From: Rhodococcus sp. Leaf247
GTDB lineage: Bacteria; Actinomycetota; Actinomycetes; Mycobacteriales; Mycobacteriaceae
Length of the DNA stretch: 64,000 bases
Direction: 5' to 3'
Assembly: GCF_001426185.1 (NCBI RefSeq)
Contig: NZ_LMRP01000004.1
Span: 539,525 to 603,524, forward strand
The notes under the pieces were generated by a model. That model made no database searches. It saw nothing but the letters and a program-made list of their open reading frames with translations, and had not been told where the DNA came from. The stretch's first letter is position 1. Each line of letters begins with the position of its first letter. The position numbers and the translations under genes were made by a program. Below, in pieces: positions 379-23,991 of this stretch.

Positions 379-3195
379 TCAGCGCCGACCGGGCATTCGA
401 TCTGGACCATGCTGCAGGGCTGCGGTTGCGTCGAGGCGGACGGCGGCGGAGGGGCTCGATGTCAGTATGTGGGCGAGTGTTGCGGTTGCATCGTTGATTG
501 GGGTGCCGCGCAATGCCACTGCGACCATGCGTGACACCAGAGTGCCGCCGTCGGGGTCCAGCAGTCGCGTGAGCAGTAGGTTGGCTGTGTGGTTGTCCTG
601 GCCGGCGACTATCCAGCGTGCGAGGCAGTTTGCCACGACCGCGCGTACCCATGGATCGGCGTCGTGCGCCATGACGGCGAGCGTGTGCATCGCTGCACCC
701 GGTTCCTTTTGCGCCACCACAAGGGCGGCAGCGGCTCGTTGATTCGGGTCTCCTGCCATGAGAGCCCACAGTTCGCGATCCTCGAGAGCGTTCGGGTCGA
801 GTACGCCGAGTGCGGATGCGGCGTCACTTCGTATGTCGGTGCCGCCGAAGAATCGATGCTCCGGTTTCGCTTCGGTCATCAGCGTCTTCAAGAGGGGTGT
901 GATTCTGCCGATCACATCGGCAGGGACGCGGCCTGCATGACGCCGTAGAGCTTGCAGAGGTGCTTTCAGTTGGTGTGTGAAGACCTGGTAGTGCTTCAGC
1001 AGTTGCTCGATCTCGGTCCAGTGCGCGTGGGTCGGGTGCCAGGTGTTGAGGAGTATGAGCGTGCCGGCCGCGCTTCCGTCTCCGAATGTGCCGCGGCCCT
1101 GGTTCAATTCGGTGATCTGTCGGCCGATCCGCTCATCGAGAACACTTGCGAGGCTGTCCACGGTGTGCGCTGGTAGGTCTCGGACGTCGCCGTAGGCCTG
1201 GAGGGCGCCGAGGTCCCCTTCGGCTATCTGGCTCAATAAGTTCGTGCGTCGGTCGGCATCGCGCGATGCGAGTACTTCGATGACAGCTTCTGTGAATTCG
1301 AAGTTGTCAGATGAGCGAAGCGACCTGCTCGATAGAGCAGCGATCCGCGGGGGCGTCCACGCGTCATCGGGGATCGACTGGATGATCTTGGCGTACTCGT
1401 GGGCGACGGATTGGTCGTCGACCTCGGTTGCAGCCACGATCATCGACACCACCTTGTCGACCGTGGTGTGTGACGCGGCTGGTACGACTGCTGCTATCAG
1501 TTCGCGGATGCGACGGACCGAATGGTAGTTGCTGATGATCCTTCCGGATGCGCGCACTGGGTCGGGCAGGATGTCGAGGGCCCACTCGATGCATCGGTCG
1601 GCAGTCGACTCGCTGATGACGTCGGCACCGTGAATGAGGAGCTCCACGCCGGCGTCGAGGGTCGTCCGAGTGACGACGGACAGGTCGAGTGCCTCGGCGG
1701 TGTCTTTTACCGCCGATGTCGGTCCCACGTCCAGTAGGTGGGGCACCGCTAGCTTGATCGCGTCGACGTCCCCGGCGGTGTGCAGTGCTTCGAGCGCAGC
1801 ACGGAGATGTTCGGCGTCGGTGCTCACCGTCGCAGTGCGTTTGGCGAGCTGCGCGAAGGAGAGACGCCACGCGGCATGATCGGCGGCAGCGCCGGCAATC
1901 AGGGACGCCGCGCGAAGGTGGTTCCACGGCTGGCCGCTCACTCTTGCGTCAGCGCCGCGTCTGACTCCCCAACGCGTGAAGGTTTCGTCGGCTGTGTACT
2001 GCAGTCCGGATGCCATGTCCTGTGTGCGCCACCACGATGCATGGGTGTCTCGGTTGGTGATCGCTTCGCCGACGTTCTGGTTCGACCAGTCCGTGAGCTC
2101 GAACATGAGGTTGGTGCCGGCGCCCGCCAGGGCCAGTGCCGTCGGGTCCTGAGGGTGCGTGTGACGCAACGCTTGTGCTGTCACCGCTGATTCTCGGGCT
2201 TCGTCGAGTTGACCGGTGTCGGCCAGACATCTGGCGAGATGCATCGTCAGCCATGCGTGATCGACTGGTGAGGCGTCGTCGTAGGCGAGTGTGCGCCGGA
2301 GCACGTCGAGAGCTTCTGCGGGGTTGCGCTGTTCGATGAGTAGAGCTGCGGTCAGTGCTGTTGCAGCGGCGCGCTCGGCACCCGTGGCCGCGGTGGCAAT
2401 GAGGCTGGACACGCCATGGACCGCGTTGTCGGCTCCAGTGATGACTGCATCGTGGAGTGCGGCGTAGAGCTGCCATTGCCAGTTCGGTGATGTCCTGCAG
2501 TGATCGACGGTAGGAACCAATGAGGATCGCCCGGGTCGTTCCGTCAGGTCGTCTCGCCTCATCTTGATCAGACATGCGATGGCTTCGGGAGCGGTGAGTT
2601 CGGTGGTGTGCAGGTTCGGGTGCGGTGCGACCAGGCGAGGCGTGAGAAGTGCGTACCGCAGCCGGTCATGATGCAGGAGTTGGTGAGCACCGGTCCACGC
2701 GCTGCCCTCCCAATGTGGTGCTAGCCGCCCGGCGGTGGCAATTCGGACGAGCTCGTCCACGGTGCTCGGTGCGAGTGGGTTCGTCCGAGGGATCAGGATC
2801 TTGTAGCCGTTACCCGTCGAGGTGACGTTCGCTTCGGTGACGTGCACCCAGGTGGACTGCCCGGTGTCGGGGTCGTGCAGAACGATGATGTGCGGCACCT
2901 GATGGTTGAGCCAGTAGTCGAAGTGGTCACCGTCCGACTCGCGGAACCACCATCCGTCGACGGCCCCATCATCATTACGGGCAGTCGAATAGAACTGTGT
3001 GATGCCCGACTTGACCTGAACGCCGAGCAGCGACCCGAGATCCCAACGTCGAGAATCTCGCGCGGCGACCCACAGGTCGGTTCCGAGGTCGTGTTCGGTG
3101 GGGTTGGGCGCTACTCCCCAACCCAACGCGACGAATTGCTGTGCAACCGCCAGCTCGCCGGCGGAGCCTGTCAATCCGTTTTCGCTAGCACGCAT
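379..3195 (-). CDS. DUF4365 nuclease-like protein with large helical-repeat C-terminus, candidate defence protein
   Basis: The ATG at 3195 gives 938 residues. An upstream in-frame start at 3399 would add 68 low-complexity residues that run into the repeat element, so I prefer 3195. Residues ~8-150 match the DUF4365 pattern: Glu14, Asp36/Asp40, then a QVK strand at 60-62. These are the spaced acidic/Lys residues of the PD-(D/E)XK restriction-endonuclease fold. The rest is mainly short helical repeats: TPR-like around 300-400 and HEAT-like near the C-terminus. No membrane segment or signal peptide is visible. DUF4365 proteins often occur among anti-phage and mobile genes; a defence role here is inferred from domain and position. 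The gene stands alone, opposite to the preceding carboxylase and close to repeat copy 1, and looks somewhat less GC-rich than the catabolic genes. Confidence 0.7.
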   Translation of the reverse strand: MRASENGLTGSAGELAVAQQFVALGWGVAPNPTEHDLGTDLWVAARDSRRWDLGSLLGVQVKSGITQFYSTARNDDGAVDGWWFRESDGDHFDYWLNHQVPHIIVLHDPDTGQSTWVHVTEANVTSTGNGYKILIPRTNPLAPSTVDELVRIATAGRLAPHWEGSAWTGAHQLLHHDRLRYALLTPRLVAPHPNLHTTELTAPEAIACLIKMRRDDLTERPGRSSLVPTVDHCRTSPNWQWQLYAALHDAVITGADNAVHGVSSLIATAATGAERAAATALTAALLIEQRNPAEALDVLRRTLAYDDASPVDHAWLTMHLARCLADTGQLDEARESAVTAQALRHTHPQDPTALALAGAGTNLMFELTDWSNQNVGEAITNRDTHASWWRTQDMASGLQYTADETFTRWGVRRGADARVSGQPWNHLRAASLIAGAAADHAAWRLSFAQLAKRTATVSTDAEHLRAALEALHTAGDVDAIKLAVPHLLDVGPTSAVKDTAEALDLSVVTRTTLDAGVELLIHGADVISESTADRCIEWALDILPDPVRASGRIISNYHSVRRIRELIAAVVPAASHTTVDKVVSMIVAATEVDDQSVAHEYAKIIQSIPDDAWTPPRIAALSSRSLRSSDNFEFTEAVIEVLASRDADRRTNLLSQIAEGDLGALQAYGDVRDLPAHTVDSLASVLDERIGRQITELNQGRGTFGDGSAAGTLILLNTWHPTHAHWTEIEQLLKHYQVFTHQLKAPLQALRRHAGRVPADVIGRITPLLKTLMTEAKPEHRFFGGTDIRSDAASALGVLDPNALEDRELWALMAGDPNQRAAAALVVAQKEPGAAMHTLAVMAHDADPWVRAVVANCLARWIVAGQDNHTANLLLTRLLDPDGGTLVSRMVAVALRGTPINDATATLAHILTSSPSAAVRLDATAALQHGPDRMPGRR

Positions 3196-3559
3196 CGTGG
3201 TCCGCCCGCCATCGTCGTGGTCTCCGTTGCGACGAGCATGCCAGCCGGATCCGACAAAGCCCCCACGCACACAAGTCGGTTTCGAAGCCGCGTCGGGGAA
3301 CCCAAGCCCAATTTCATCGTTCGAGGGAAGCGGATCGAGCGCCGTAATCGGATCAGACCGCCGCCACAGAAGGCGACGGTGGGAACGATTGGCGGGCACT
3401 CGACACTCCGCGGGCCACTCATCACTTATTCATGACTTTCATTCCGGACTTACCCGGGCCATGGTGATCCCGTATGGTCATGCGACTCTTAATCCACGCT
3501 GGTCACATGGTCTTTCGTGGTCTCACTTGGATTCCTTGGCTTGGCCGGGCATAGTCACT

Positions 3560-3592
3560 GGGTCCGGGGTTCGAGTCCCTGTGGGCGCACCA
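3560..3592 (+). other. tRNA 3' half remnant (T-arm, acceptor strand, CCA)
   Basis: The segment reads as a T-arm (cgggg-TTCGAGT-ccctg) followed by tgggcgc and ACCA, exactly what the 3' end of a tRNA looks like. A matching 5' half is missing: the bases 70-80 nt upstream cannot pair with the acceptor strand. A Lys(CTT)-like anticodon loop lies about 70 bp further upstream than it should. It is therefore a fragment rather than a functional tRNA, as often left at integration sites. The same 33 bases recur at 23746-23778. Confidence 0.6.
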
Positions 3593-3594
3593 AA

Positions 3595-3634
3595 AAGGGC
3601 CCCTGATCTGCGGTGATGCTGATCAGGGGCCCTT
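3595..3634 (+). terminator. Strong hairpin terminator following the tRNA-like 3' end
   Basis: A perfect 14-bp stem (aagggcccctgatc / gatcaggggccctt) encloses a 12-nt loop. A-rich bases precede it and ctggttt follows. The stem is identical in the second copy (23781-23820) while the loop has changed, which shows selection on the structure or a recent shared origin. Confidence 0.7.
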
Positions 3635-3805
3635 CTGGTTTGGGTGGCACTCACTACTTATTCATGACTTTCAACTCGAAACTCACTCTTTCGGGCCTTC
3701 TCGGCGAGATCGGGCGATGCATTGCGCCTGGTCAGGCGGCTGCATAATTTTCTGTTCTGGGTCCAATAGACCGTTGGAATAAGAGTCGAGTAGCCATGGG
3801 CGTCC

Positions 3806-4242
3806 AGCACCGTCTCGACCGCCAGCTAACTCGCGCGCGCACATCGGAACGTTACGAGTCGTGCCGAACAGCACCCACCGGGCAGCCAAGGCGGCGGCTC
3901 CCCATTAAGGGTGGCTTGGTTCTCGTGTGCTCGATGGACGACTGAAATGCCATGGCGATGCGTGTCGCGACGAGGCTCTCGCGGTGATGGCGGTGATGGC
4001 GGTGATGGCGGTGATGGCGGTGATGGCGGTGATGCGGTTCGCGTACCGCTGGATTGTTGGTTTTTGAGGTTGCACGCGGCGCCACGCGCCTACGGAGACC
4101 CCAAAACCAAAACGACAATCATTGCCGATGCGTTTTGTCAGCTTAAGGAATCTTGTTGATACGGGTGCGAAGCGGGCGTCCCCACCAACTACTGCGTATC
4201 AACTCGTTCTCCTGCACCTGCCAGTTGTAGCGACTGCTGGAG
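3806..4242. other. Gene-free spacer with a 9-bp minisatellite
   Basis: There is no convincing coding frame here. The only structure is a tandem array of the 9-mer ggtgatggc (five perfect units from 3983 to 4027, then a broken one to 4035). The 437-bp stretch looks less GC-rich than the flanking genes. Confidence 0.6.
3983..4035. repeat. 9-bp tandem repeat, about 5.8 units
   Basis: Five head-to-tail copies of ggtgatggc plus a partial sixth. The array would code for Gly-Asp-Gly on one strand and His/Arg-rich peptide on the other, but neither frame sits in a gene. It is probably a slippage-prone microsatellite. Confidence 0.85.
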
Positions 4243-5307
4243 TCAGGTCAAAAATTTCGTTGGCACTGGAGCTTCCGTGCTACTTCTGATGATCAATTCT
4301 GGTTCTAGCAGGACCGGTTCCGGCTCCCTTCCCGCGAGGACATCAAGCAACAGGCCAAGCGAACGGCGGCCCATCTCGTGCATGGGGGACCGGACAGTGG
4401 TCAGAGGAACTGCTCCACCCTCAGCCAGGGGTGTGTCGTTGTAACCCACCATCGCCACGTCGTCCGGCACGCGAATTCCCCTATCGCGCAACGCGCCGAA
4501 GGCGCCGAGGGCGGCGAAGTCGTTCGTGGCGAAGATTGCTTCGGGAAGTGGTCCCGAGGCCAGAAGCTGATCGATCGCGGCTCGCCCACCAGCTGGATCG
4601 AAGCCCGAGTAAACGATTCGCTCAAGCGGTACATGAAGGCCGTTGTCGGCGAGAGCTTCCACCAGCCCCCGCGTGCGGTCCCGGGCAGTCGATGCGAAGG
4701 GCAGTCCGGCCAGTACCGCAACGTCTCGCCGACCGGTATCGACAAGATGTTGCCCGACGAGGCGACCACCCTTGAAGTCGTCGGTCGTCACCGAGGGGTA
4801 GCTCCCGGATCGTCGAGAGGTCAGCGTGAACTTGAGTCCGCGGGCGTGGACTTCGTCTAGGAAGACGTGGTCGAGGTGCGCGTCGCCGTAAATCAGCCCG
4901 TCCACGCGGCGATCGATCATCATCTGGGTGCGTTCGCGTTGCAACTCGACGAGGTCTCGGGAGTTCGTGACGAAGGTCGACAGACCTACTTCTGTCGCGG
5001 CCTCCTCGATTCCCTCATAGATGGTGGCGAGCACGTAGTCCTGCAGGCGCGGCACGAGCACGCCGATCAGGCCTGACCTGCGAGTCCGAAGGCTCGACGC
5101 CTGAGGGTTAGGCGAGTAACCCGTTTCTTCTGCATAGCTTCTGATGCGGGCGACAGTGTCCGGCGAACCCCATCGCGACGCCGCGTCGCCCCGCGAGTTG
5201 AGGACCCGGGACACAGTGGACGGGCTGACGCCGAGCTCGGTGGCGATCATGCGTAGCGTCACCGGCCCCCGCCGCGCAGGCTCTGGGCAATTCTCCTCCG
5301 TGCTCAC
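4243..5307 (-). CDS. LacI-family transcriptional regulator
   Basis: With the GTG at 5307 the protein has 354 residues, the usual LacI size. The upstream ATG at 5349 would add 14 residues and lie inside the operator region. An N-terminal helix-turn-helix is clear (VTLRMIATELGVSPSTVSRV), followed by a periplasmic-binding-protein-like effector domain (GLIGVLVPRL..., DGLIYGDAH, AIFATNDFAALG, VGYNDTPLAEG). It is divergent from the asparaginase operon. The 109-bp gap holds three LacI-style operator boxes, so it probably represses that operon and itself. The ligand is unknown; an imide, amide or amino-acid derivative would fit the neighbours. Confidence 0.9.
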   Translation of the reverse strand: MSTEENCPEPARRGPVTLRMIATELGVSPSTVSRVLNSRGDAASRWGSPDTVARIRSYAEETGYSPNPQASSLRTRRSGLIGVLVPRLQDYVLATIYEGIEEAATEVGLSTFVTNSRDLVELQRERTQMMIDRRVDGLIYGDAHLDHVFLDEVHARGLKFTLTSRRSGSYPSVTTDDFKGGRLVGQHLVDTGRRDVAVLAGLPFASTARDRTRGLVEALADNGLHVPLERIVYSGFDPAGGRAAIDQLLASGPLPEAIFATNDFAALGAFGALRDRGIRVPDDVAMVGYNDTPLAEGGAVPLTTVRSPMHEMGRRSLGLLLDVLAGREPEPVLLEPELIIRSSTEAPVPTKFLT

Positions 5308-5350
5308 ACGGCGAGCGTACCGAACAACCCATGTTACGAACTGGTTCACA

Positions 5351-5395
5351 CAAACGTTTGACCAAAGTTACACAAACGATTGCGTCAAACGATTG
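5351..5395. promoter_or_regulatory. LacI-type operator boxes between regulator and asparaginase operon
   Basis: A perfect palindrome CAAACGTTTG lies at 5351-5360, and two near-palindromic boxes CAAACGATTG lie at 5373-5382 and 5386-5395. The central CG in an AT-rich inverted repeat is the hallmark of LacI-family operators. The boxes are 22 and 13 bp apart and end 21 bp before the asparaginase ATG. Confidence 0.7.
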
Positions 5396-5416
5396 TGTCG
5401 TGCTTCACTACCTCAC

Positions 5417-6418
5417 ATGCAGTCACGAATCGCCGTCATCGCCACCGGCGGCACCATCGCATCGACGACCACAACCGGGGGCGTCGTGGCCAGCCGCACC
5501 GCCTCCGCACTCGTCGACGAACTCGATGTCTCGGGGGTTGTCATCGAGACTGTCGACCTGATGACGGTGGGTTCCTACAACCTGACCTTCGAACATCTGA
5601 GATCAATCAGCGACTGCGTCGCCGAACTGCTCGCCCGTGAGGTCGACCCCGTCGACGGCATCGTGATCACGCACGGCACCGACACACTCGAGGAAACGGC
5701 GATCCTCCTCGATCTGGTCCACGACGACCCGCGCGCAGTGGTCATGACCGGCGCCCAACGCGCCCACGACGCACTCGACGGCGACGGTCCACGCAATCTG
5801 AGAGATGCGATCGATGTCGCGGCGTCACCCGACGCGCGCGATCTCGGCGTCCTCGTGGTCTTCGCGGGCGACGTACTGGCAGCACGTGGCACACGCAAAT
5901 TGCACACCACGGCGCTCGCCGCCTTCGGTTCCACTGCGCATGGGGGCATTGGAACCGTCGGCGGCGGCCAAGTGTGTGTCACGTCGGTTCCGCGCCGCCC
6001 CAAGCCATTGGCGCGGCCGACCGCGCAGTTCGACACCACACGCGTCGACCTGGTGGAGATGTACCTCGGCGCCGACGGCGTCTTCGTGAATGCGGCCGTC
6101 GCCGCGGGCGCTGCGGGGATCGTCCTTGCAGGAACAGGAGTCGGCAACGCGAACGAGTCCGTCACCAGAACGGTGACAGAGGCGCTGGCGACCGGCATCG
6201 TCGTGGTCCTGTCCACCCGGGTGCCGGAAGGCCCCGTCGCCGGCGTCTACGGCAACGGCGGGGGTGCCGACCTGATCGCGGCCGGAGTCCCCGCAGCGTC
6301 GGGATTACCTGCAACCCAACTTCGAATCCTTCTGGCGCTCTGGCTCTCTCAACGCCACGATCGGTCCGAGGCACCCCAGTCCGCGATCGACATCTACTCA
6401 GACAACAAGGAGCTCTGA
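5417..6418 (+). CDS. L-asparaginase / short-chain amidase of the asparaginase family
   Basis: The protein has 333 residues from the ATG at 5417, where family similarity begins; upstream frames run through the operators. The first catalytic motif TGGTIA is at residues 10-15 and the second, THGTDT, at about 85-91. The C-terminal domain ([13 protein letters not shown]..., [10 protein letters not shown]) also fits. The family hydrolyses asparagine to aspartate and ammonia. With a cyclic-imide-hydrolase-type gene 4 bp downstream, it might instead hydrolyse a half-amide such as succinamate (inference). No signal peptide is visible, so it is probably cytoplasmic. It is the first gene of the LacI-controlled operon. 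Confidence 0.85.
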
Positions 6419-6422
6419 CCTC

Positions 6423-7301
6423 ATGGCCAAGGAAATTTTCGTCGCGTTCGGTATCGATGTCGACGCCGTCGGTGGTTGGCTCGGTTCGTACGGCGGTGAG
6501 AACTCACCAGGCGACATCTCGCGGGGAGTGTTCGCCGGCGAGGTGGGCGTCCCCCGACTGAACAACCTTCTGAAGAAGTACGACCTGCCGGCGACGTGGT
6601 TCTGGCCCGGCCACTCTGTGGAGACCTTCCCGGAACAGTTCGACGCCGTCGTCGCGAGCGGTCACGAGATCGGGGTGCACGGATACAGCCACGAGAACCC
6701 CATTGCGATGTCCCGCCAACAAGAATCCGACATTCTCGACCACTGCCTGGATCTCATCACCACCCGATCGGGTAACCGCCCCACGGGGTACGTCGCGCCG
6801 TGGTGGGAGTTCAGCAAGGTCACCAACGAACTGCTCGTCGAGCGCAACATCACCTACGACCACTCCCTTATGCACCGCGACTTCGAGCCGTACTACGTGC
6901 GGGTCGAGGATTCGTGGACGGCGATCGACTACGACAAGCCCGCGGCCGCGTGGATGAAGCCCTACATCCGCGGCACCGAGACCGACCTGGTCGAAATTCC
7001 GGCCAATTGGTACCTCGACGACCTGCCTCCGATGATGTTCATCAAAGGCAGTCCCAACAGCCACGGATTCGTCAATCCCCGTCACCTCGAAGAGATGTGG
7101 CGAGACCAGTTCGACTGGGTCTACCGGGAGAGCGAGTACGCCGTCTTCACCTTCACCATCCACCCCGATGTCGCCGGCAGACCGCAAGTGCTGCTCATGC
7201 TCGAGCGGCTCATCGAACACATCAACAAGCACGACGGCGTGACCTGGACGAACTTCAATTCTATCGCCGAAGACTTCAAGCACCGCTCGCCGCGCACCTG
7301 A
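6423..7301 (+). CDS. NodB-fold hydrolase of the polysaccharide deacetylase family, probable cyclic imide hydrolase
   Basis: The protein has 292 residues. The ribosome site aaggag lies inside the end of the asparaginase gene, so the two are coupled. NodB-type metal motifs are present: FGIDVDAV (residues ~9-16) and [13 protein letters not shown] (~82-94), plus GYVAPWWEF and a late TIHPDV. Bacterial imidases of ~293 aa belong to this family and open succinimide, maleimide or glutarimide to the half-amide; PuuE-type allantoinases are also related. Length, lack of a signal peptide and wording ([15 protein letters not shown]) favour imidase over a wall-polysaccharide deacetylase. This assignment is from memory of the family. 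Confidence 0.75.
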
Positions 7302-7342
7302 CTCGATCACCCCGAACCGCACCTCGACAGAAAGACTGGACA

Positions 7343-8707
7343 ATGTCCGAAACCACCCCTGGACCGGCCGCCGGCCTCCGGCGCGTCACCGGCAAGGAAA
7401 CCCGCCGCGCATCGGGAATCGCGTTCTTCGCGTGGACCGTCGCCGTCTACGACTTCATCCTCTTCGGCACACTCCTGCCACGCATCGAAGAATCCTTCGG
7501 CTGGACCACCAGCCACGCACTCCTCGTCTCGACACTCGTGAGCGTCGGCACCGCGGTCGTCGTCCTCCTCGTGGGACCACTCGTCGACAAACTGGGCCGC
7601 CGCAAGGGCATGATCATCTCGGTCGCAGGCACCGCGGCATCGTCCGCGGCCACCGCGGCCACCGTCGGTGCAGCATCGCTGATCGGCGTCCGCGCTATCA
7701 GCGGGCTCGGACTCGCCGAGCAGTCGGTCAACGCCACCTACCTCAACGAACTCTACGACGTGACCGAAGACGAGAAGATCAAGAAGCGCCGCGGTTTCGT
7801 CTACTCGATGGTCCAGACGGGCTGGCCCGCCGGAGCTCTCCTCGCAGCCGGGTTTGTAGCCATCGTCACCGCAATCTTCGGGGCCGAGTCGTGGCGCATC
7901 GTGTTCCTGCTAGCCACGATCCCCGCGGTGATCGTGGCCCTGGTGTGCCGCACCCTGAAGGAGAGCCCGCAGTTCGAGGCCCAGCACACGGTCAAGCAGC
8001 TGCGCAAAGCGGGAAGAAACGACGAGGCCGACGCTCTCGCGTCTAGCACGGCGACGGTCGAGCAGACCGCAGCACCGTTCAAGCGCATCTTCACCGGGCG
8101 ACACCTGCGCAACACGGTCGTGTTCTCCTTCGCCTGGCTGTTCAACTGGTTCGCCATCCAGACCTTCTCGGTCCTGGGAACGACTGTGCTGGAGACAGGC
8201 AAGGGCATCGACGCCTCGAGCACGCTGATCCTCGTCGTCCTGTCCAACCTCGTCGCCGTCGCCGGGTACCTCGCGCACGGGTGGGCCGGAGATCGCTTCG
8301 GGCGCCGCCCGACCATCGCTGTGGGGTGGACCCTGTCGGGGTTGTTCTTCGCCGCGATGCTCCTCGGACCGTCCAGCCAGATCTTCGTTCTCGTCACGTA
8401 CATGATGGGACTGTTCTTCCTCCTCGGCCCCTACGCCGCGATCCTGTTCTTCCAAGCCGAGTGCTTCGATACTGACTGCCGTGCAACGGGTTCGGCGTTC
8501 ATCGGCGCCATGTCCCAACCCGGCGCTATCATCGCCGGCTTCATCCTCACCGGCCTCACCGCATCGTCGATCGGGTACTCCACCGCCGCCCTGGCAGTCG
8601 GCGCGGTCGGCGCGATAGTGTCCGCCGGAGTCGTCCTGTTCGCCAAACCGGTCGTCGACGACACCCCGTCGATCATCTCGACCCCTGCAGTGGGTGTGCG
8701 CTCATGA
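7343..8707 (+). CDS. MFS transporter, metabolite:H+ symporter type
   Basis: The 454-residue protein has about 12 hydrophobic segments and the MFS loop motif DKLGRRKG between TM2 and TM3, repeated in the second half as GDRFGRRP. A cytoplasmic loop with conserved Glu/Arg ([17 protein letters not shown]) and the long central loop resemble small carboxylate/aromatic-acid symporters. It probably imports the substrate or an intermediate of the surrounding catabolic operon. The start at 7343 agrees with the onset of similarity; its last codons overlap the next gene (ATGA at 8704). Confidence 0.85.
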
Positions 8708-9468
8708 GCGAACAACCCGTCGCGATGATCACCGGCGCCGCCTCCGGCATCGGCGCCGCCACCGCCACCTGCCTCGCCGGACGCGGTATCCGGGTGGGCA
8801 TCGGCACCTTCGCAGGCGACCCCCACGACCCGGAAGCGACCTTGCGTGAGGTCCGCGATGGCGGCGGCGAGGGCCTGATAGTCGAGGTCGACGTCCGTTC
8901 CACCGACTCCGTCGACGCGTTCGCTCAAACTCTTGTCTCGACGTGGCAACGCCTCGACATTGCCGTCGCCAACGCCGGCATTCTCCGCGAAGCATCGTTC
9001 GACGCGATGTCGGACGAGCAGTGGCACGCGATGATGGACGTCGATCTGCACGGAGTGATGCGAACAGCACGCGCCGGACTCCGGCACATGGGACCCGGCG
9101 GGTCGGTCACCGCGATCTCGTCGATCGCCGGCGGCGTCTACGGCTGGCAGAACCACGCCCACTACGCAACCGCCAAAGCAGGCGTCATCGGGCTGGTACG
9201 CAGCCTCGCAGTGGAATACGGGCCCCGCGGCATCCGAGCCAACGCCATCATCCCCGGTCTCATCAGCACGCCCCAGTCGAACGACGCCGTCAACTCTCTG
9301 GGCCCCGAGGGTCTCGATCGCGCCGGCAGCTACATCCCGTGGGGTCGCGTCGGACATCCCCACGAGGTAGCCGAGGTCGTCGCGTTCCTGTCGAGTCCAC
9401 AGGCCTCCTACGTGAGCGGCCAGAGCATCGTCGTCGACGGCGCGCTGACCACAGCCATGCGGGACTGA
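8704..9468 (+). CDS. SDR-family oxidoreductase 1
   Basis: A classical short-chain dehydrogenase of 254 residues. It has the NAD(P) motif TGAASGIG near residue 10, the NAG motif, the catalytic Ser (AISSIAGG) and YATAK (Tyr-x3-Lys), and ends with a typical VDGALTTAM. It overlaps the MFS gene by ATGA, indicating translational coupling. The substrate cannot be read from the sequence; a hydroxy acid/keto acid step in the same pathway is plausible. Confidence 0.9.
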
Positions 9469-9481
9469 AAGGACCGGCGAC

Positions 9482-10219
9482 ATGTCAGCACTGCTCACAG
9501 GACGCCGCGCCCTCGTGACGGGCGCGGCGTCCGGAATAGGTCGCGCGATCGCACTCGCACTCCTCGCCGAGGGCGCGGCCGTCACGATCGCCGATCGCGA
9601 CCCGACCACACCTGAGCTGGCCGACGAGCTCGGGGTTGCCAGGGGTCTGGTGTTCGACGCCGCCTTCGAATCCGACACAGATCGCATCGTCGATCAGGTT
9701 GTGTCCGAGGACGGTGGGCTCGACATCCTGGTGTGCTCGCACGGCATCCTCACTCAATCGCCCGCCGCGGACATGACCACCGAACTGTGGCGAGAGACCA
9801 TCGACATCGACCTGACGAGCGTGTTCCTGCTCAACCGAGCAGCCCTGCGCCCCATGCTGGCGCAGCGCCACGGCAGGATCATCAACATCGCCTCCCAGCT
9901 GGGCATCAAAGGCGGTGTCTCGCTCGCCCACTATGCCGCGGCCAAAGCCGGTGTCATCGCACTGACGAAGTCGATCGCGCTGGAGAACGCATCTCACGGC
10001 ATCTTGGCCAACGTGATCGCGCCCGGTCCGGTCGACACACCCATGGTCGACGCCATCGACGATGACTGGAAACGGCACAAGCGAGGAGAACTTCCGCTCG
10101 GGAGATTCGGTACCCCGGACGAGATCGCACCGACAGCGGTCCTCCTGGCGTCCGAACCCGGCGGCAACCTGTTCGTCGGCCAGGTCCTCGGACCCAACTC
10201 CGGCGACGTGATGCCCTGA
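9482..10219 (+). CDS. SDR-family oxidoreductase 2
   Basis: A second classical SDR (245 residues), 13 bp after the first. Motifs are TGAASGIG (~15-22), the strand ending CSHGIL instead of NAG, the catalytic Ser in IASQLG, and YAAAK. The two SDRs differ clearly in sequence and are not a recent duplication. The final base of its TGA is the first base of the next start codon. Confidence 0.9.
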   Translation: MSALLTGRRALVTGAASGIGRAIALALLAEGAAVTIADRDPTTPELADELGVARGLVFDAAFESDTDRIVDQVVSEDGGLDILVCSHGILTQSPAADMTTELWRETIDIDLTSVFLLNRAALRPMLAQRHGRIINIASQLGIKGGVSLAHYAAAKAGVIALTKSIALENASHGILANVIAPGPVDTPMVDAIDDDWKRHKRGELPLGRFGTPDEIAPTAVLLASEPGGNLFVGQVLGPNSGDVMP

Positions 10220-10497
10220 TGTGCGGGGGATGCGCCGGCGCTCCACCCGACTGGGCCGCAGCCCACGTCAGTGGCGTCCGCCAGCGATTCGCGGTCGCGC
10301 GGCGAGTCTCGACTGCGCTGCGCCGGGACACCGTTCGGCCCATCACCTCTGGGTGGATAGTCGACGGACCCACCGGAGTGTCGGTCGTTTGCCGTACCTA
10401 CGACGATTTGGTCCGCATCGTCAGCGCGCGGTCCGGTCGACCGGGTCCCGAGATCCGAGACATCGGACTGGGTCTCGCGGCCGAAACCACCCACTAA
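10219..10497 (+). CDS. Small hypothetical protein with N-terminal CxxC
   Basis: The 92-residue product starts MCGGCAG, so it has a CxxC pair at the very N-terminus. It is otherwise a small alpha/beta-like soluble protein (VSVVCRTYDDLVRIVSA). The ATG overlaps the SDR stop (tgATG), and it lies between two enzymes of the operon, so it is probably expressed. I do not recognise the family; CxxC might bind metal or be redox active. Confidence 0.5.
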   Translation: MCGGCAGAPPDWAAAHVSGVRQRFAVARRVSTALRRDTVRPITSGWIVDGPTGVSVVCRTYDDLVRIVSARSGRPGPEIRDIGLGLAAETTH

Positions 10498-10550
10498 CTC
10501 ACACTTTCACCCACTCAAGCCGGTTTCGGCTTCCCCATTCGGAGGATTTC

Positions 10551-11663
10551 ATGACGCACGCAGCGACATCGATCGACGCGTTGTTCCAGACGGCCCGGTT
10601 GGGCCCGACCACACTGCCCAACAGAGTGGCGGTGGCGCCGATGACCCGCGTCAGCGGTGATCCCGACGGCTCGGCGAACGACAGGAACGCCGCCTACTAC
10701 GAGGTGTTCGCCCACGGCGGCTTCGGACTGGTGATCACCGAGGGCCTTTACCCCGACACCGCACACAGTCAGGGGTATCTGAACCAGCCGGGCCTGGCCA
10801 CCGAAACTCACGCACGGTCCTGGACACCTGTGGTGGACCGCGTTCATAAGGCAGGCGCAAAGATGTTCGCCCAGCTCATGCACGCGGGGGCGCAATCTCA
10901 GGGCAACCGCTACACCGACACGTCCGTGGCACCGTCCACCGTCCCCCCACGCGGGGAACAGCTGGGCTTCTACGGCGGCACCGGCTCGTATCCCACACCG
11001 CGAGCACTCACCGCATCCGACATCGCGGACGTGCGATCAGGATTTACACGCGCCGCCAGGAACGCCGTCAGAGCAGGGTTCGACGGCGTGGAAATCCACG
11101 GCGCGAACGGCTACCTTCTCGACCAGTTCCTCACCGACTACATGAACCAGCGCGACGACGTCTACGGTGGATCGGTCGAAAATCGCGTCCGGATCTTCCG
11201 CGAGGTCATTGCCGAGACCCGCGAGGAAGTCGGTTCCGAGATCACGATCGGCGTACGCATCTCGCAGTCCAAAGTCAGTGACTACCTCCATCGGTGGTCC
11301 GGAGGCGAGTCCGACGCCGCGGTGATCTTCACGGCCCTCGCCGAGGCCGGTGTCGACTACATCCACACCACGGAGTTCGACGCCACCGCCGCTGCGTTCC
11401 CCGACTCCGATCGGACGCTCGCCTCCCTCGCCGTCGAGCACTCGAAGCTGCCGGTGATCGCCAACGGGCAACTCGGCGATCCCGCCACCGCCGCGTCGAT
11501 GGTGGAGCGAGGGACCGCAGACGTTGTCGCGCTCGGCAAGCCGGCGCTCGCCAACCGAGACTGGGTGCGCCGCGCACAACAAGCACAAACGATCGAGACA
11601 GAGGTCGACGACTCAGTCTTCAACCCCATGGCCACAGTCAAGGATTGGGAAGTGAGCCGCTGA
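10551..11663 (+). CDS. Old Yellow Enzyme family NADH:flavin oxidoreductase
   Basis: The 370-residue protein has an excellent ribosome site (ggagg, 5 nt before the ATG). TIM-barrel OYE features are clear: NRVAVAPMTRV at the N-terminus, EIHGANGYLLDQFL with the His/Asn pair that holds the substrate carbonyl, YGGSVENRVR, and a late phosphate-binding region (GKPALANRDW). OYEs use FMN to reduce activated C=C bonds; maleimides, enones and unsaturated carbonyls are classical substrates. Beside an imide hydrolase, a maleimide-to-succinimide type reduction is an attractive but unproven role. It is the last gene of this block and convergent with the PucR gene. Confidence 0.9.
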   Translation: MTHAATSIDALFQTARLGPTTLPNRVAVAPMTRVSGDPDGSANDRNAAYYEVFAHGGFGLVITEGLYPDTAHSQGYLNQPGLATETHARSWTPVVDRVHKAGAKMFAQLMHAGAQSQGNRYTDTSVAPSTVPPRGEQLGFYGGTGSYPTPRALTASDIADVRSGFTRAARNAVRAGFDGVEIHGANGYLLDQFLTDYMNQRDDVYGGSVENRVRIFREVIAETREEVGSEITIGVRISQSKVSDYLHRWSGGESDAAVIFTALAEAGVDYIHTTEFDATAAAFPDSDRTLASLAVEHSKLPVIANGQLGDPATAASMVERGTADVVALGKPALANRDWVRRAQQAQTIETEVDDSVFNPMATVKDWEVSR

Positions 11664-11765
11664 TCCCCGGACGGAATTCCTCGCCGCCCGTCACCACGCC
11701 TCACCTGCGCCGGACGCGATGATTGCGGGTGGCACACCGATGCACGAGTCCGACACTTCTGGTGC

Positions 11766-13316
11766 TCACGGCAGCTTCCATGTCGTCACGGTGGAGCGCG
11801 GAATATCGGGCATGGCCTGGTCATCGTTTTCGCCGGAGTCGTGCATCCCCCAGACGGCCAAGGCCACCGAGCAGGTGGCTTTGCCGTCCATGGTGCTCAG
11901 GGACACTCCCAGAAGCTCGCCGATGCGGTTGATCCTGTAGGTCAGTGAGTTTCGGTGAATGAACAGCGCCGTAGCCGTGCGGGTCGGACTGCCGTCCGCG
12001 TCCAGGAATGCTCGCAGCGTGCGGACCAGTTCGGATCCGCTCTCGACGTCGTAGTCATTCAGCGGTCGGATGAACTCCAGAGCCTGTTCGACACCGCCGG
12101 TGGACAGTGCGGTGGCAAGAACGGACGGTAGATCGAAGGGCCGTGCGGCGGTGGGTTCCTGGACGCGGTCGAGCTGCCGCGGTGACGCCATCACCGCCGT
12201 GCGCAGGGCGCCGATGCCGGGCAAGGGCGCGGTGACGATCGCGGGTCTGCGCGGGGCGATGTCGTGCAGCCGTCGGAGTGTGGCGGGCTGGGCCGAGTCA
12301 CGATCGAAGTCCTGTCCGATCAACAGCGAGTAGCGCTCGGTTTCCAGCAGACCGAGGGTGGGGAAGATGTCGGTCAGGTCCAATCGCATCCGCCAGGAGT
12401 CGTGAGGATCGGCTCCCGTCCGTACTGTGATCAGGACGATCGGTTTCTGTGGGTCGAATCCGGCGGCCCGCATCAGCTTCTTCGTGAAACGAGGGGATTC
12501 CGAATCCGGGAGCCGCAGATGCTCGACCAAGGAACGCATGCGGTCGTTCTCGACGTTGTAGTGCTCGGCGGTGGAGTTCAGGTGAAGGCTCACTATCGAT
12601 CCCACGGGCCCCAGCAAGGAATCCACTACGGAATCGTTCTGCGGGGACCGAACGGCGATGGCGAATCGTTCGCTCCCGCGAACGGGGTTCAGGAGTCGCA
12701 GATGCTCGACGAGTGCATCCGTTTTCGCGGGCGCGCGTAGCCCCGGCACGTTCCATCGCATGCCGGCAGGTCGAGAAGCGACCATCCTGCCCTGAGAGTC
12801 CACCAGCCCCACGTCACCACCGACGACGATGCGGATCTCCTCGAGCAGTCCCAACAAGGTCGTGCCTCGAGCCTCGAGTTCCGCGCATCGATCCGCCAGG
12901 GCCAGCGAGCTACGCAGAACCGCATAGTGCTCGGCTTGGATGGTGTCGTTGACCAGGCGATGCACCTGCAGCAGATTGACCGGCGGCGCCACCTCCAGAA
13001 CAGGCACATCGAAAACGTTGCCCGCGTCGATGAGTCCCTGAGGGACCGCCGGGTGCACGACGCCGGAGTGGAACAAAATTCCCGTAACCGGCACCCGCGC
13101 CAACCGCTCCACGTAAGCGTTCCATGTCCGGGCATCCCCGAAGTTCATCCCGATACCCGACAACGTCAACAATTCGTTGCCACTGAGGTACCCGGTCGGC
13201 TCGATCAACTCGGTGGGGGCCACCGAGGAGATGGTGCGCGAGAGGCGTGTGGCATCGGTCGCAGTCTTCAGCCGGACATTCAAGTACTGGTTCGCCACCA
13301 GATCCGTCAATTGCAT
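11766..13316 (-). CDS. PucR-family transcriptional regulator
   Basis: The 516-residue protein has an N-terminal PucR (purine-catabolism regulator-like) domain, including GMNFGDARTW and FHSGVVHPAVPQ, a middle region, and the C-terminal PucR helix-turn-helix (ALFIHRNSLTYRINRIGELLG). It is divergent from the biotin-carrier/PxpBC operon with a 364-bp gap that must contain the promoters. PucR-type regulators commonly activate genes for nitrogen-ring catabolism (purines, hydantoin, GABA), in line with the lactam-type enzymes it faces. Confidence 0.88.
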   Translation of the reverse strand: MQLTDLVANQYLNVRLKTATDATRLSRTISSVAPTELIEPTGYLSGNELLTLSGIGMNFGDARTWNAYVERLARVPVTGILFHSGVVHPAVPQGLIDAGNVFDVPVLEVAPPVNLLQVHRLVNDTIQAEHYAVLRSSLALADRCAELEARGTTLLGLLEEIRIVVGGDVGLVDSQGRMVASRPAGMRWNVPGLRAPAKTDALVEHLRLLNPVRGSERFAIAVRSPQNDSVVDSLLGPVGSIVSLHLNSTAEHYNVENDRMRSLVEHLRLPDSESPRFTKKLMRAAGFDPQKPIVLITVRTGADPHDSWRMRLDLTDIFPTLGLLETERYSLLIGQDFDRDSAQPATLRRLHDIAPRRPAIVTAPLPGIGALRTAVMASPRQLDRVQEPTAARPFDLPSVLATALSTGGVEQALEFIRPLNDYDVESGSELVRTLRAFLDADGSPTRTATALFIHRNSLTYRINRIGELLGVSLSTMDGKATCSVALAVWGMHDSGENDDQAMPDIPRSTVTTWKLP

Positions 13317-13680
13317 GACTATGCCCCTACGAACAGGAAAAACAGCGACCTAGCGGTGTGTTTCGTCATCGTTACCTCGAAGTTTCCACCGACACGGGAA
13401 GCGGCGTGACTGGGCATCCGACCAACTAGCGGCCTGTGCTTTTCGTGCAAATGTACGCTGTCGCAGCCTCGTGTCGATCCATACCGTTCTCGTCATGCCC
13501 TCGCACCACAACGGTCGATCTCGGACCACGAGCATCCGGGAGAACCCGGTTCGAGGGCTGACACCGCCGGCGTCCGCGTCGACCCTTGTGACACCGCCGC
13601 CGCCGATGCCTGACCGTCGGTCGCAGCGCTCGCACGGACCGAGAAAACCCCGCCCGGTCAGAACTGGAAAGGCAGAACAA
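13317..13680. promoter_or_regulatory. Divergent control region between PucR gene and biotin-carrier operon
   Basis: This 364-bp gap carries no convincing gene. An open frame from 13471 continues into the carrier protein, but it lacks family similarity before 13681. It must hold the promoters of both directions. I see no clear operator palindrome. Confidence 0.45.
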
Positions 13681-13926
13681 TTGGCAACGCATGAGGTCTC
13701 GACACCAGTTCCGGGGATCTTCTACCGGAACCCCGGCCCGGGAAAACCGCCGTACGTCTCCGAGGGCGACCACGTCGACGCCGGCCAGGCCATCGGGCTG
13801 GTGGAGATCATGAAGCAGTTCAGTGAGGTCAAGACCGCCGTAGCCGGCGTGATCGACAAGTTCGTCGTCGCCGACGCCAGCGAAGTGAGCCCCGGAACCG
13901 TCATCGCCGAGCTGACGGAGGACTGA
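13681..13926 (+). CDS. Small biotin carboxyl carrier protein (81 aa)
   Basis: The single biotinyl domain contains VEIMKQF, with Lys in the biotinylation motif, and the conserved ending GTVIAEL. The start is chosen at TTG 13681: it follows a ggaaagg ribosome-like site and gives the typical short carrier, while an ATG at 13471 would add 70 unrelated residues. It overlaps the biotin carboxylase start (tgATGa). Stand-alone short carriers of this kind accompany PxpB/PxpC-type genes. It shuttles carboxybiotin made by the next gene. Confidence 0.85.
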   Translation: MATHEVSTPVPGIFYRNPGPGKPPYVSEGDHVDAGQAIGLVEIMKQFSEVKTAVAGVIDKFVVADASEVSPGTVIAELTED

Positions 13927-15287
13927 TGAAACGACTTCTGGTAGCCAATCGCGGTGAAATCGCGGTACGCATCATCCGCACGGCACACGAAATGGGGCTC
14001 GAAACAGTCCTGGCAGCGAGCGAGGCGGACACGGAATCCCTCGCGGCCGCGTTGTCCGACCACGTCGTGGTCATCGGCCCAGCACAGGCAGGGCACAGCT
14101 ACCTCGACTCGGCTGCAGTCATCGACGCGGTCCACAGTTCGGGTGCCGATGCGGTACACCCCGGGTACGGATTCCTCTCCGAGGATGCGAACTTCGCGCG
14201 GAGCGTCGAGGCCGCGGGTGTCACCTGGGTGGGCCCGAGCCCAGACTCCATCGCGCTGATGGGCAACAAGGCAGCCGCACGTGAGGCGGCGAGGGACGCC
14301 GGCGTTCCGGTTCTCGCGGGCAGTGACGGGGCGATCCTCGCCGACCAGGATGTGCGAGCGATCGCGGAGTCCATCGGGTTTCCGCTCCTGATCAAAGCGT
14401 CGGCCGGTGGCGGTGGCCGAGGTATTCGTATCGTGGAGACGGTCGATGCCCTCGAGGGCGAGATCCAGCTGGCCGTCGCCGAGGCCGGAGCGGCGTTCGG
14501 AGATTCCGCCATCTATCTCGAACGCTTCATCGACAGGGCACGCCATGTCGAGGTTCAGATCCTCGGCGACGGAACCGATGTCGTCCACCTCTTCGACAGG
14601 GACTGCTCGCTGCAGCGGCGCCAGCAGAAGATCGTCGAGGAGACTCCCGCCCCCAACTTGCCCGCACACCTGCGTGAGCAGATGCTGACCGCCGCGGTCG
14701 ACCTCGGCAAGCGGTGCGCGTACCGCGGAGCGGGAACCGTGGAGTTCCTCTACGACCAGGCTCGCGGTGAAATCTGCTTCATCGAGATGAACACCAGGCT
14801 TCAGGTCGAACACCCGGTCACCGAGATGATCACGGGAATGGACTTGGTGCGCGAGCAGCTACGCATCGCCAGCGGGGAGAAACTCGGCTACGACCAGCAA
14901 CAGATCACTCGGAACGGCCACGCCATCGAGATGCGCATCAATGCCGAGAATCCCGCGATGGGGTTCATGCCGAGCCCCGGGACGATCACCGACATCCGCT
15001 ACCCCGGTGGACCAGGTGTTCGGGTCGACAGCGGTGTCGTCGCCGGATCCGTCGTGTCGCCGTACTACGACTCCCTCGTCGCCAAGATCGTGGTGTGGCA
15101 TTCCGACCGCCCCTCCGCCCTCGGTCGCGCCCTGCGAGCACTGTCCGAACTTCGAGTCGATGGCGTAAATACCACGACGTCGTACCTGACATCCGTTCTC
15201 GCTCACCGATCCGTCGTCAACGCCACTCACCATACGAAGTTCCTCGAGCAGTCCGCCGATCAACTCCTCCAGGGGACGACGACGTGA
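13926..15287 (+). CDS. accC: Biotin carboxylase
   Basis: The protein has 453 residues, normal for AccC. It begins KRLLVANRGEIAVRIIR and has the ATP-grasp features (KASAGGGGRGIR glycine loop, HVEVQILGD, ERDCS-like FDRDCSLQRRQQK, EMNTRLQVEHPVTE). It carboxylates the biotin of the small carrier encoded just upstream, using ATP and bicarbonate. Linked to PxpB and PxpC rather than to a carboxyltransferase, it suggests ATP/bicarbonate-driven activation of a lactam or related amide (inference from clustering). The stop overlaps the next GTG. Confidence 0.93.
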   Translation: MKRLLVANRGEIAVRIIRTAHEMGLETVLAASEADTESLAAALSDHVVVIGPAQAGHSYLDSAAVIDAVHSSGADAVHPGYGFLSEDANFARSVEAAGVTWVGPSPDSIALMGNKAAAREAARDAGVPVLAGSDGAILADQDVRAIAESIGFPLLIKASAGGGGRGIRIVETVDALEGEIQLAVAEAGAAFGDSAIYLERFIDRARHVEVQILGDGTDVVHLFDRDCSLQRRQQKIVEETPAPNLPAHLREQMLTAAVDLGKRCAYRGAGTVEFLYDQARGEICFIEMNTRLQVEHPVTEMITGMDLVREQLRIASGEKLGYDQQQITRNGHAIEMRINAENPAMGFMPSPGTITDIRYPGGPGVRVDSGVVAGSVVSPYYDSLVAKIVVWHSDRPSALGRALRALSELRVDGVNTTTSYLTSVLAHRSVVNATHHTKFLEQSADQLLQGTTT

Positions 15288-16189
15288 GACGAGAAGGCCC
15301 ACCCGAGCGCGCCCGATACTCCTGGGGCGGCGACGAATTCCTGTTCATCGAGATCGACGAGTCGATGAGCCTGGATGGATACGTCATCGTCGGAGCGTTG
15401 GCGGACGCGATCCGCGCCGCCGCGATCGCAGGTATCAGCGACATCTGCCCCACGAACAACTCCCTGCTGCTGCGCTACGACCCGGACGTCATCGCACCAC
15501 GGTCGCTGCGCACGCAGATCGAAGAGATCGAATCGGCGGTACGAGCAGGCTCCGCGCAGGTGTCATCGACGCGAGTCATCGAGGTCCCCGTCTGGTATGA
15601 CGACCCGTACACCTCCGAGGTCGGATCGCGCTTCCGAGCCAACCATCAGACACCCGACATGAGCGACCTCGACTTCGCCGCCGAGGCCAACGGATGCGCC
15701 GACGCACAGGACTTCATCGAACGCCACCACCGCACACCCTGGATGGTCACCGCGGTCGGCTTCGTCGCAGCACTGCCTTTCATGTACCAGATGACCTCAC
15801 GCGCAGAGCAATTGGAAGTTCCCAAGTACCTCAGCCCACGTACTGACACCCCGCCGCTGACGGTGGGACACGGCGGCTGTTTCACCGTCATCTACTCCGT
15901 CCGCGGGGCGGGTGGTTATCAGATGTTCGGGATCGCGGCAGCGCCGGTATTTGCCCCCGACTCCGCCCTGGCGGATTTCCAGCAATCTCCGGTTCTGTTC
16001 CGCGCCGGCGACATCGTCAAGTTCACCCCGATCGAGCAGGACCGGTACGACGCCATCCGCCGCGAATGCGAGGACGGCACATTTCGGTACCGGATCACCG
16101 AGGTCGATTTCGACCTGGCGCGGTGGACAGCCGACCCGGAAACCTACAACACCAGCATCCTGGAGGCCCTCGATGGCGCTGCTCGTTGA
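15284..16189 (+). CDS. pxpB: 5-oxoprolinase subunit B-like protein (KipI/PxpB family)
   Basis: From the GTG at 15284, overlapping the AccC stop, the product has 301 residues, longer than the usual ~230. The start overlap and the wording YSWGGDEFLFIE at the N-terminus support this start. Family marks are RVIEVPVWYDDPYT and TAVGFVAALPFMY. PxpB and PxpC form the catalytic partner of PxpA in ATP-dependent opening of 5-oxoproline. With a carrier and a biotin carboxylase attached, the substrate may be a different lactam. Confidence 0.85.
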   Translation: MRREGPPERARYSWGGDEFLFIEIDESMSLDGYVIVGALADAIRAAAIAGISDICPTNNSLLLRYDPDVIAPRSLRTQIEEIESAVRAGSAQVSSTRVIEVPVWYDDPYTSEVGSRFRANHQTPDMSDLDFAAEANGCADAQDFIERHHRTPWMVTAVGFVAALPFMYQMTSRAEQLEVPKYLSPRTDTPPLTVGHGGCFTVIYSVRGAGGYQMFGIAAAPVFAPDSALADFQQSPVLFRAGDIVKFTPIEQDRYDAIRRECEDGTFRYRITEVDFDLARWTADPETYNTSILEALDGAAR

Positions 16190-18619: not shown

Positions 18620-18662
18620 CCCTCACCAGACCACTACTCCACGACGACAGACAGGACACGCC

Positions 18663-18863: not shown

Positions 18864-18911
18864 CGTACATCGCCAGACCCCGAACCAACAACAAGAAAGC
18901 GTGCACACACC

Positions 18912-23324: not shown

Positions 23325-23745
23325 GAGACCTCCCGCGTTAACGACGATGGTGCGAGTACCACCCGTCTGCTCGAGTCGAGACTGAGTAGTGAGGAGGCTA
23401 GCTGCAAGCAACGACACGTACAGCTAACAGAAGCGAGGACGGATTGCGAATGAACATGGAGCTTCGAACTCTCGCCGGAAATGTGAGGCTGTTCGGTCCA
23501 ACGGGTGCGGCGTTCCCCACTTGCAACTCGTCTGGTCATCGATCCGCACGGTCCTTAGGGGTTCGACCCTTGCATAGGCGCCCACTCGACACTCCGGTGG
23601 CCACTCATCACTTATTCATGACTTTCAATCTGGTCCCACCCGCACCGTGGTGGCCCCGTGTGGTCATGTGACTCTTAATCCGCGCTGGTCAGGCGGACTT
23701 TCGTGGTCCCAATGGGATTCCTGGCATTCAGCGGGCATAGTCACT

Positions 23746-23778
23746 GGGTCCGGGGTTCGAGTCCCTGTGGGCGCACCA
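23746..23778 (+). other. tRNA 3' half remnant, second copy
   Basis: The bases are identical to 3560-3592: T-arm with TTCGAGT loop, acceptor strand tgggcgc and ACCA. A matching 5' half in register is again missing, so no complete tRNA is annotated. Confidence 0.6.
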
Positions 23779-23780
23779 AA

Positions 23781-23820
23781 AAGGGCCCCTGATCAGCGGT
23801 TATGCTGATCAGGGGCCCTT
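23781..23820 (+). terminator. Strong hairpin terminator, second copy
   Basis: It has the same 14-bp stem as at 3595-3634 (aagggcccctgatc / gatcaggggccctt), with a loop differing at two positions. Confidence 0.7.
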
Positions 23821-23991
23821 CTGGTTTCGGTGCCACTCACTACTTATTCATGACTTTCAGCTCGAAACTCACGCGTTCGGGCTCTCCGGGCAGAGACTGA
23901 CGGTGCATTACTGCTGGTCAGGGCGTCGCCATCTGGTCTGTACTGGGTCCAACAGACGGTGTGATCATGAGTCATGTAGCAACGGACGTCC

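Follow-up and report, generated by a model that had tools for sequence, protein, structure and literature searches.

What is the function of a protein that joins a nuclease-like domain to a long arm of helical repeats, lies beside a tRNA-derived repeat, and occurs in only 3 of 37 genomes of its own genus (this and all later genome counts include its own genome)? We addressed this question for a gene in a 64,000-nucleotide stretch of Rhodococcus sp. Leaf247 (contig NZ_LMRP01000004.1, positions 539,525 to 603,524; hereafter the window). The open reading frame (ORF) lies on the minus strand at 379-3195 and encodes a 938-residue protein from an ATG at 3195; the maximal mechanical ORF runs from 379 to 3399, and the start was placed at 3195 because the homologues share an MRAS/MRGS motif at or close to their own starts. 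We think it rather probable that the protein is a one-gene, horizontally moving defence nuclease against invaders, gated by its solenoid and free of any Argonaute, with a design like that of DSR2 and a DREN domain as the effector.

The predicted nuclease domain and the solenoid

The N-terminal part of the protein matched Pfam DUF4365 (PF14280) at residues 12-152 (E 1.3e-22; 80.8 bits against a cut-off of 24.3), the sole DUF4365 match found in the genome (a 4.53-Mb assembly of 5 contigs). An AlphaFold2 model of the full protein, built from 47 sequences (mean predicted local distance difference test score, pLDDT, 88.9; predicted template modelling score 0.86), laid out an alpha/beta domain to about residue 160 followed by helices from about 175 to 928. 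Among the matches listed, the solved chain nearest to the nuclease part was a DREN-APAZ chain of the short Argonaute system SPARDA (9qcc_Y; Z 18.4 over 148 residues, 2.7 Å, 25% identity), with further such chains at Z 17.8 (9vx6_P) and Z 15.6 (9jsz_J), and the homing nuclease I-Ssp6803I well below them at Z 11.1. A sequence profile also recovered DREN chains (9qbq_A, E 3.5e-6; 9jsb_D, E 1.7e-4). These comparisons support a fold of the PD-(D/E)XK nuclease type for the N-terminal domain, with the catalytic residues in place, and activity is predicted. An earlier note on this DNA had proposed such a DUF4365 nuclease-like domain, which the Pfam and DREN fold matches bear out; the helical repeats that it placed behind the domain are present as TPR/HEAT helices, but span about 750 residues and not the 800 or so that it gave.

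Conservation was read from a 47-row alignment of homologues, from which 10 of 51 loci were excluded as truncated, edge-cut or broken (L037, L042, L050, L056, L062, L066, L067, L070, L071 and L077) and in which L047 was retained despite a change of frame in the match to its last part. D40, Q60 and K62 were invariant (47/47), D36 was replaced by Glu in 4 rows (Asp in 43), and the position of Glu14 was Glu in 26 only. On this conservation the predicted motif is D36xGxD40...Q60xK62 and not Glu14/Asp40/QVK, the pattern first proposed, of which Asp40 and QVK stand. Glu14 was rejected as a catalytic residue, being both variable and absent from the catalytic residues given for NbaSPARDA. Its aligned position is also Glu in a DUF4365 chain of solved structure, and E13 of NbaSPARDA is an interface residue (PMC12205087).

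The same residues have been probed in other proteins. The DREN catalytic residues of NbaSPARDA are D41, Q60 and K62, with D41A and Q60A abolishing and K62A impairing collateral activity (PMC12205087). For TmuRE, a DUF4365-APAZ protein, Q62 and K64 are the predicted active-site residues and their double mutant serves as the inactive form; together with its Argonaute, TmuRE degrades DNA nonspecifically (PMC10810196). The motif of EAT16, which is toxic to E. coli, is written DxGxD...QxK, and single mutation of three of its four residues led to loss of toxicity (PMC11297309).

The homing nuclease among the fold relatives bears on a type IV-like restriction function, in which the solenoid would clamp modified or odd-structured DNA and the nuclease would cut it directly, without death of the cell. 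A PD-(D/E)XK nuclease beside a DNA-reading part is a usual restriction design. Moreover, I-Ssp6803I is a tetramer that cuts pseudo-palindromic DNA (PMC12205087). However, Pfam found no recognised DNA-reading domain in the protein, the commonest neighbour family occurred at 9 of the 59 loci in our neighbourhood set with none shared more widely, and those DUF4365 relatives for which there are data cut nonspecifically once activated (PMC10810196, PMC12205087); we consider restriction improbable.

Within the helical part, the two Pfam matches were barely above their cut-offs (TPR_19 at residues 286-356, 26.8 bits against 25; HEAT_2 at residues 839-928, 27.9 bits against 27.7). In fold comparison, residues from about 414 to 906 were similar to HEAT/ARM solenoids such as importins, CAND1 and SF3b, and residues 156-460, modelled alone (pLDDT 91.4), were similar to the TPR proteins PlcR and kinesin light chain (Z up to 12.2), with no Foldseek match to the latter model at E 0.001 or better. 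We found no specific relative of the solenoid, and its helical-repeat scores may reflect a common arrangement only.

The alignment contained 18 invariant columns including the three catalytic ones. The others included W26, W82, W95 and W116 in the nuclease part and, in the middle part, R180, P186, R187, D312, W315, D350, D383 and W389, with W388 and R390 nearly so; the invariant residues of the middle part suggest a specific interaction surface there. In all 46 homologues compared, the nuclease part was nearer to the window's protein than the solenoid was (mean identity 0.46 vs 0.32), and a faster-diverging arm would be expected if the arm follows changing targets.

Mobility and gene neighbourhoods of the homologues

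Beyond the genus, some match was found in 14 of 301 genomes at the family level (8 full length, one without the N-terminus) and in 5 of 396 at the phylum level (3 full length). The two same-genus relatives, 88% and 64% identical, lie at other genomic sites; the copy in genome G013 is far from both the pyruvate-carboxylase-like gene (pyc) and tRNA-Lys, and that in G020 is on a contig with neither. A profile search of species genomes recovered 51 loci. Record titles place nearly all of them in Actinomycetota; also among them are one Latescibacteria and one Pseudomonadota contig from metagenome-assembled genomes (MAGs) and one MAG titled marine group Sva0996. A single-sequence search of the same contigs gave 9 pattern matches and no relative. 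Fourteen plasmid records matched, six of them covering at least 80% of the protein (five Rhodococcus, one Glutamicibacter), and most of the matching plasmid proteins are annotated "DUF4365 domain-containing protein". In the Rhodococcus plasmid records L024 and L028, both linear, the homologue is close to the end of the record. A single partial DUF4365 match came from viral contigs, and phage records had two matches confined to the DUF4365 part, with no full-length phage copy seen; no viral structure matched the whole model at the E 0.001 level, and Leptospira phage LE1 contributed a DUF4365 protein at E 6e-3.

In a maximum-likelihood tree, a Gordonia sequence was placed in a Micrococcales group (with Arthrobacter, Micrococcus, Brevibacterium and Arsenicicoccus), and one from the Latescibacterota MAG fell inside the Actinomycetota, both on starred branches. 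An IS3 element interrupts the gene in three plasmid records; several chromosomal copies are split or cut short, and draft-assembly error may account for some of these. A gene that is patchy, plasmid-borne, in two cases placed across taxonomic groups on the tree, and found in IS3-interrupted and split copies has the distribution of a mobile, conditionally useful gene.

This distribution bears directly on a housekeeping role, in which the protein would be a nuclease of DNA repair or recombination of the Holliday-junction-resolvase type. DUF4365 has been likened to resolvases (PMC11297309), but the patchiness within the genus, the varying sites, the carriage on plasmids, the IS3 interruptions and the split or truncated copies in several draft genomes make this role extremely improbable. 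Homologues lie on mobile elements and, at some loci, beside known defence genes, and keep D40, Q60 and K62 throughout the alignment, in place of the constant housekeeping contexts or missing catalytic residues that the earlier note had named as contrary signs.

Carriage on plasmids and other elements could also mean that the protein acts not against phage but against competing replicons, which it would kill or exclude, its solenoid recognising structures of replication or the plasmid DNA itself. A gene for a telomere-binding protein lies about 2 kb from the homologue in three Rhodococcus plasmid records (L022, L024 and L028; two linear), TrwC relaxases and integrases were each found in 4 of 117 neighbours, and SPARDA is activated by plasmids or phages (PMC12205087). 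Some chromosomal copies, however, adjoin ordinary antiphage systems (Qat, Shedu, AbiL, restriction). The two aims are compatible, and we regard exclusion of plasmids or other elements as an unlikely explanation.

The neighbourhood set comprised 59 loci, with genes called by an in-house codon-score caller and not a standard one. PADLOC was run on 26 single neighbours picked as promising: a first set of 10 (two each at L040, L089 and L065, one each at L091, L079, L057 and L096), a set of 6 run with 2 proteins of the own genome, and a further set of 10. A recognised defence gene was found no more than 1 kb from the homologue at at least 7 of the 59 loci (Table 1), a lower bound and not a rate given how the neighbours were picked; the AAA proteins of AriAB and Old type near the homologues at L079 and L040 are less specific. 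In a pooled run, PADLOC gave 102 families over 117 neighbours vs 12 over 91 control proteins, a rough comparison that counts models and not proteins, since several models can match one protein. The 117 neighbours were taken nearest first, to a limit of 50,000 residues, from a pool of 169 (proteins of 150-1600 amino acids lying within 4 kb, no more than three per locus) and cover 55 of the 59 loci; the controls came from 13 arbitrary stretches of four genomes. Among the Pfam matches listed for the neighbours (25 of 109 families) were relaxases, integrases and transposases, as well as DnaB and a PQQ enzyme.

At 6 loci the homologue is preceded, 0-11 bp upstream and on its own strand, by a member of a partner gene family of about 366-407 amino acids, and at 3 others a member is nearby (Table 1); the members tested, at L040, L048 and L074, matched nothing in Pfam or PADLOC. 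A conserved two-gene operon for the whole family was rejected, as the partner is at only 9 of the 59 loci. The arrangement would suit a toxin-antitoxin or immunity pair, with the nuclease a toxin restrained by the adjoining small gene. Yet the partner was not found at the other 50 loci, including the window (some flanks being cut by contig ends), and on the tree, with the partner label on 8 of the 47 rows, its distribution takes five gains or losses to explain; we consider such a pair very improbable.

Several observations weigh against a one-gene, Argonaute-free defence nuclease. The neighbours in the window are the pyruvate-carboxylase-like gene and, past the repeat, a LacI-type regulator, neither a recognised defence gene. 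Most loci have no identified close defence gene, and 15 of the 26 singly scanned neighbours gave no clear defence match (4/10, 4/6 and 7/10 by set). These were the L040 partner, L057, L096 and a relaxase/RecD-type L065 protein in the first set; both partner genes, L036 and L035 in the second, together with the window's own 662-residue protein described below; and, in the third, six neighbours that matched no family and one, L039, whose match was of methyltransferase type. With a second gene directly upstream in six loci, at least one branch may depart from the one-gene design. PF02171, the Piwi model, matched none of 10 carrier genomes, the own genome among them, and 1 of 14 control genomes; it might overlook short Argonautes of divergent sequence, and the homologue at L047, outside those 10 genomes, adjoins a PIWI-RE gene. 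Furthermore, the solenoid matches are generic repeat folds at Z of about 10-14, in the range of common arrangements, and no experimental study of any family member was found in the literature searched.

Table 1. Features of the window and genes close to homologues at other loci (distances are from the homologue).
Feature	Position or locus	Strand	Basis or distance
Coding sequence, DUF4365 nuclease domain fused to TPR/HEAT alpha-solenoid, 938 amino acids, stop codon included	379..3195	-	ORF, Pfam, AlphaFold2 model
DUF4365/DREN-like PD-(D/E)XK nuclease domain (predicted), residues 1-160	2716..3195	-	Pfam; closest solved folds SPARDA DREN-APAZ chains, Z 13.3-18.4
D36-x-G-x-D40, acidic half of predicted active site	3076..3090	-	Conservation; D41 of NbaSPARDA DREN catalytic
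Q60-V-K62, remainder of predicted active site	3010..3018	-	Conservation; NbaSPARDA Q60/K62, TmuRE Q62/K64, EAT16 Q66/K68
All-helical TPR-like middle, residues 156-460	1816..2730	-	Model pLDDT 91.4, TPR matches, conservation
HEAT/ARM-type alpha-solenoid, residues 461-930	406..1815	-	Pfam, model, fold and profile comparison
Repeat element with tRNA-Lys 3'-end fragment (29 nt, 3564-3592) and hairpin (3595-3634); putative integration scar	3400..3700	+	Five genome copies
Second repeat copy, tRNA-Lys 3' end at 23750-23778, 88% identical	23586..23882	+	Genome repeat comparison
Type I restriction subunit (HsdR)	L091		44 bp
Type IIG enzyme	L065		52 bp
AbiLii-like and AbiLi	L089, closest relative (88% identical)		219 bp and 847 bp
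PIWI-RE	L047		129 bp
QatC	L067		871 bp
SduA	L075		4-bp overlap
AbiE (annotation)	L025		272 bp
Candidate system PDC-M54A	L027		186 bp
Candidate system PDC-S02	L054		292 bp
Partner family, directly upstream	L040 (8831-9997), L038, L041, L043, L045, L025		
Partner family, nearby	L048, L073, L074		

The tRNA-Lys repeat and the flanks of the gene

The repeat beside the gene occurs in five copies in the genome: two in the window, 20.2 kb apart and bracketing a 20-kb segment, and three others (G000 C4:532-795, C4:6911-7202 and C5:39654-39800). On contig C5 the repeat belongs to an intact tRNA-Lys(CTT); the other four copies contain only the 3' end of the tRNA, with shared flanks. Elements that integrate at the 3' end of a tRNA gene usually leave a fragment of this kind with its flanks, and the repeat beside the gene is, judged by its sequence, such an integration scar. 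The integration-type repeat of the earlier note is real. Three of the four scars have the start of a minus-strand gene close on their left: the DUF4365-solenoid gene, the gene for a 662-residue protein, and a 199-residue ORF followed by the gene for a 1540-residue protein; the fourth scar is 532 bp from a contig end. Part of the repeat was matched in all 37 genomes of the genus and more than once in 22, and the site is probably an accretion hotspot.

The 662-residue protein (window 21429-23417, minus strand, beside the second scar) had no Pfam or PADLOC match and is patchy, occurring in 5 of 37 genus genomes and in 23 plasmid records; it is a further candidate accessory or defence gene. The 1540-residue protein (L111 1390-6012, minus strand, on G000 C4 between two tRNA-Lys scars) combines a STAND NTPase with HEAT repeats and is weakly related to PDC-M54A, and could be an Avs-like or PDC-M54A-like defence gene.

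Between the scars of the window, the genes at 4243-20025 look catabolic by names taken from reading the sequences: a LacI-type regulator, asparaginase-like and deacetylase-like proteins, transporters, short-chain dehydrogenases, biotin carboxylase and 5-oxoprolinase-like subunits. A tandem 9-base repeat of GCGGTGATG units occupies 3972-4043. In the window there was no Rfam match above gathering scores, and ARAGORN found no tRNA. Left of the window, the pyc gene (L002 11288-15243) is an assembly patchwork with X/N letters between repeated segments, and the end of contig C5 matches the pyc region piecewise at 91-100% identity. The left flank of the locus is uncertain because of this patchwork and may be misjoined.

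Proposed gating of the predicted nuclease and relation to known immune proteins

As a solenoid-gated defence nuclease, the protein would act in four steps. The DUF4365/DREN domain would be a nuclease that depends on metal, has no sequence specificity and stays idle while monomeric. Its partner in the chain, the TPR/HEAT solenoid, would bind something made by an invading phage or plasmid, most likely one of its proteins. This contact would gather several copies, whose nuclease domains would pair like the DREN domains on a SPARDA filament and tetramerise. The assembled nuclease would then degrade DNA inside the cell and stop the invader, with the cell or its growth as the price. The effector half of this scheme draws on work on other proteins. 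In SPARDA, the one system for which the steps of DREN tetramerisation and DNA degradation are known, the DREN domain alone is monomeric without detectable activity and works once tetramerised, and disruption of its tetramer interfaces abolishes both activity and defence (PMC12205087). The sensor half is drawn from analogy with DSR2, in which the HEAT repeats and C-terminal domain form a cavity used by phage proteins and the arm binds the phage tail tube protein, activating the enzyme (PMC11263360). From these analogies we infer nuclease activity, sensing by the solenoid, activation driven by oligomerisation, and abortive infection for the window's protein, together with protection against phage and the nature of the trigger.

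The likeness to DSR2 is one of design only: both proteins have about 1000 residues, an N-terminal effector and a long helical-repeat/HEAT arm. The effector of DSR2 is a SIR2 NADase, whereas that of the window's protein would be a nuclease; the N-terminus is DUF4365, and Pfam gave no SIR2 match in the protein. Neither DSR2 nor Avs was among the best 50 matches listed for either model, an absence that is not evidence. Avs proteins have an N-terminal nuclease, C-terminal repeats and defence neighbourhoods. The window's protein likewise has a predicted N-terminal nuclease and C-terminal repeats, with defence neighbours at some loci of its family, but no STAND or other NTPase domain was among the 7 Pfam families that matched it at E up to 1. 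With SPARDA it shares the nuclease Pfam family, the closest solved fold and the D..QxK active site, DREN-APAZ being the same as DUF4365-APAZ. It differs in lacking APAZ, residues 156-460 being modelled as TPR-type helices and carrying TPR_19, and in that a partner short Argonaute was not found in the 10 carrier genomes; the PADLOC model Aga_REase, for a nuclease partner of Argonaute, covers residues 3-155 only (model 5-145 of 429). EAT16 likewise has an N-terminal DUF4365 with DxGxD..QxK, but is an injected cargo toxin of a contractile injection system, and the available parts of its description include no solenoid (PMC11297309). The protein also differs from Shedu, the SduA (DUF4263) model being absent from the 2 PADLOC families that matched it at E up to 1.

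The architecture has no name in the libraries searched, and the earlier note did not recognise it as a named one; the full-length protein had no match in PADLOC 2.0.0 or NCBIfam 20.0. In the literature searched, with subscription papers and preprints mostly outside its reach, we did not find a fusion of DUF4365 to a TPR/HEAT solenoid described, and DUF4365 is absent from the accessible portion of a review on antiphage nucleases (PMC12904381). The effector-plus-solenoid immune protein is a known kind; what would be new is a DREN nuclease as the effector. More tentatively, and at a little short of an even chance, we propose an Argonaute-free, NTPase-free one-gene immune family of Actinomycetota in which a TPR/HEAT solenoid that recognises invader proteins gates DREN directly, which would make DREN a reusable module attached to sensors unrelated to one another, like SIR2 and TIR. 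With the active site already mapped in SPARDA, the prediction lends itself to direct testing. The DREN work consulted concerns RNA-guided short Argonautes; if the proposal is true, fusion to a protein solenoid would show DREN to be a general immune effector, and actinobacteria would have a new defence family with a guide-free collateral nuclease whose trigger could be mapped by phage escape mutants.

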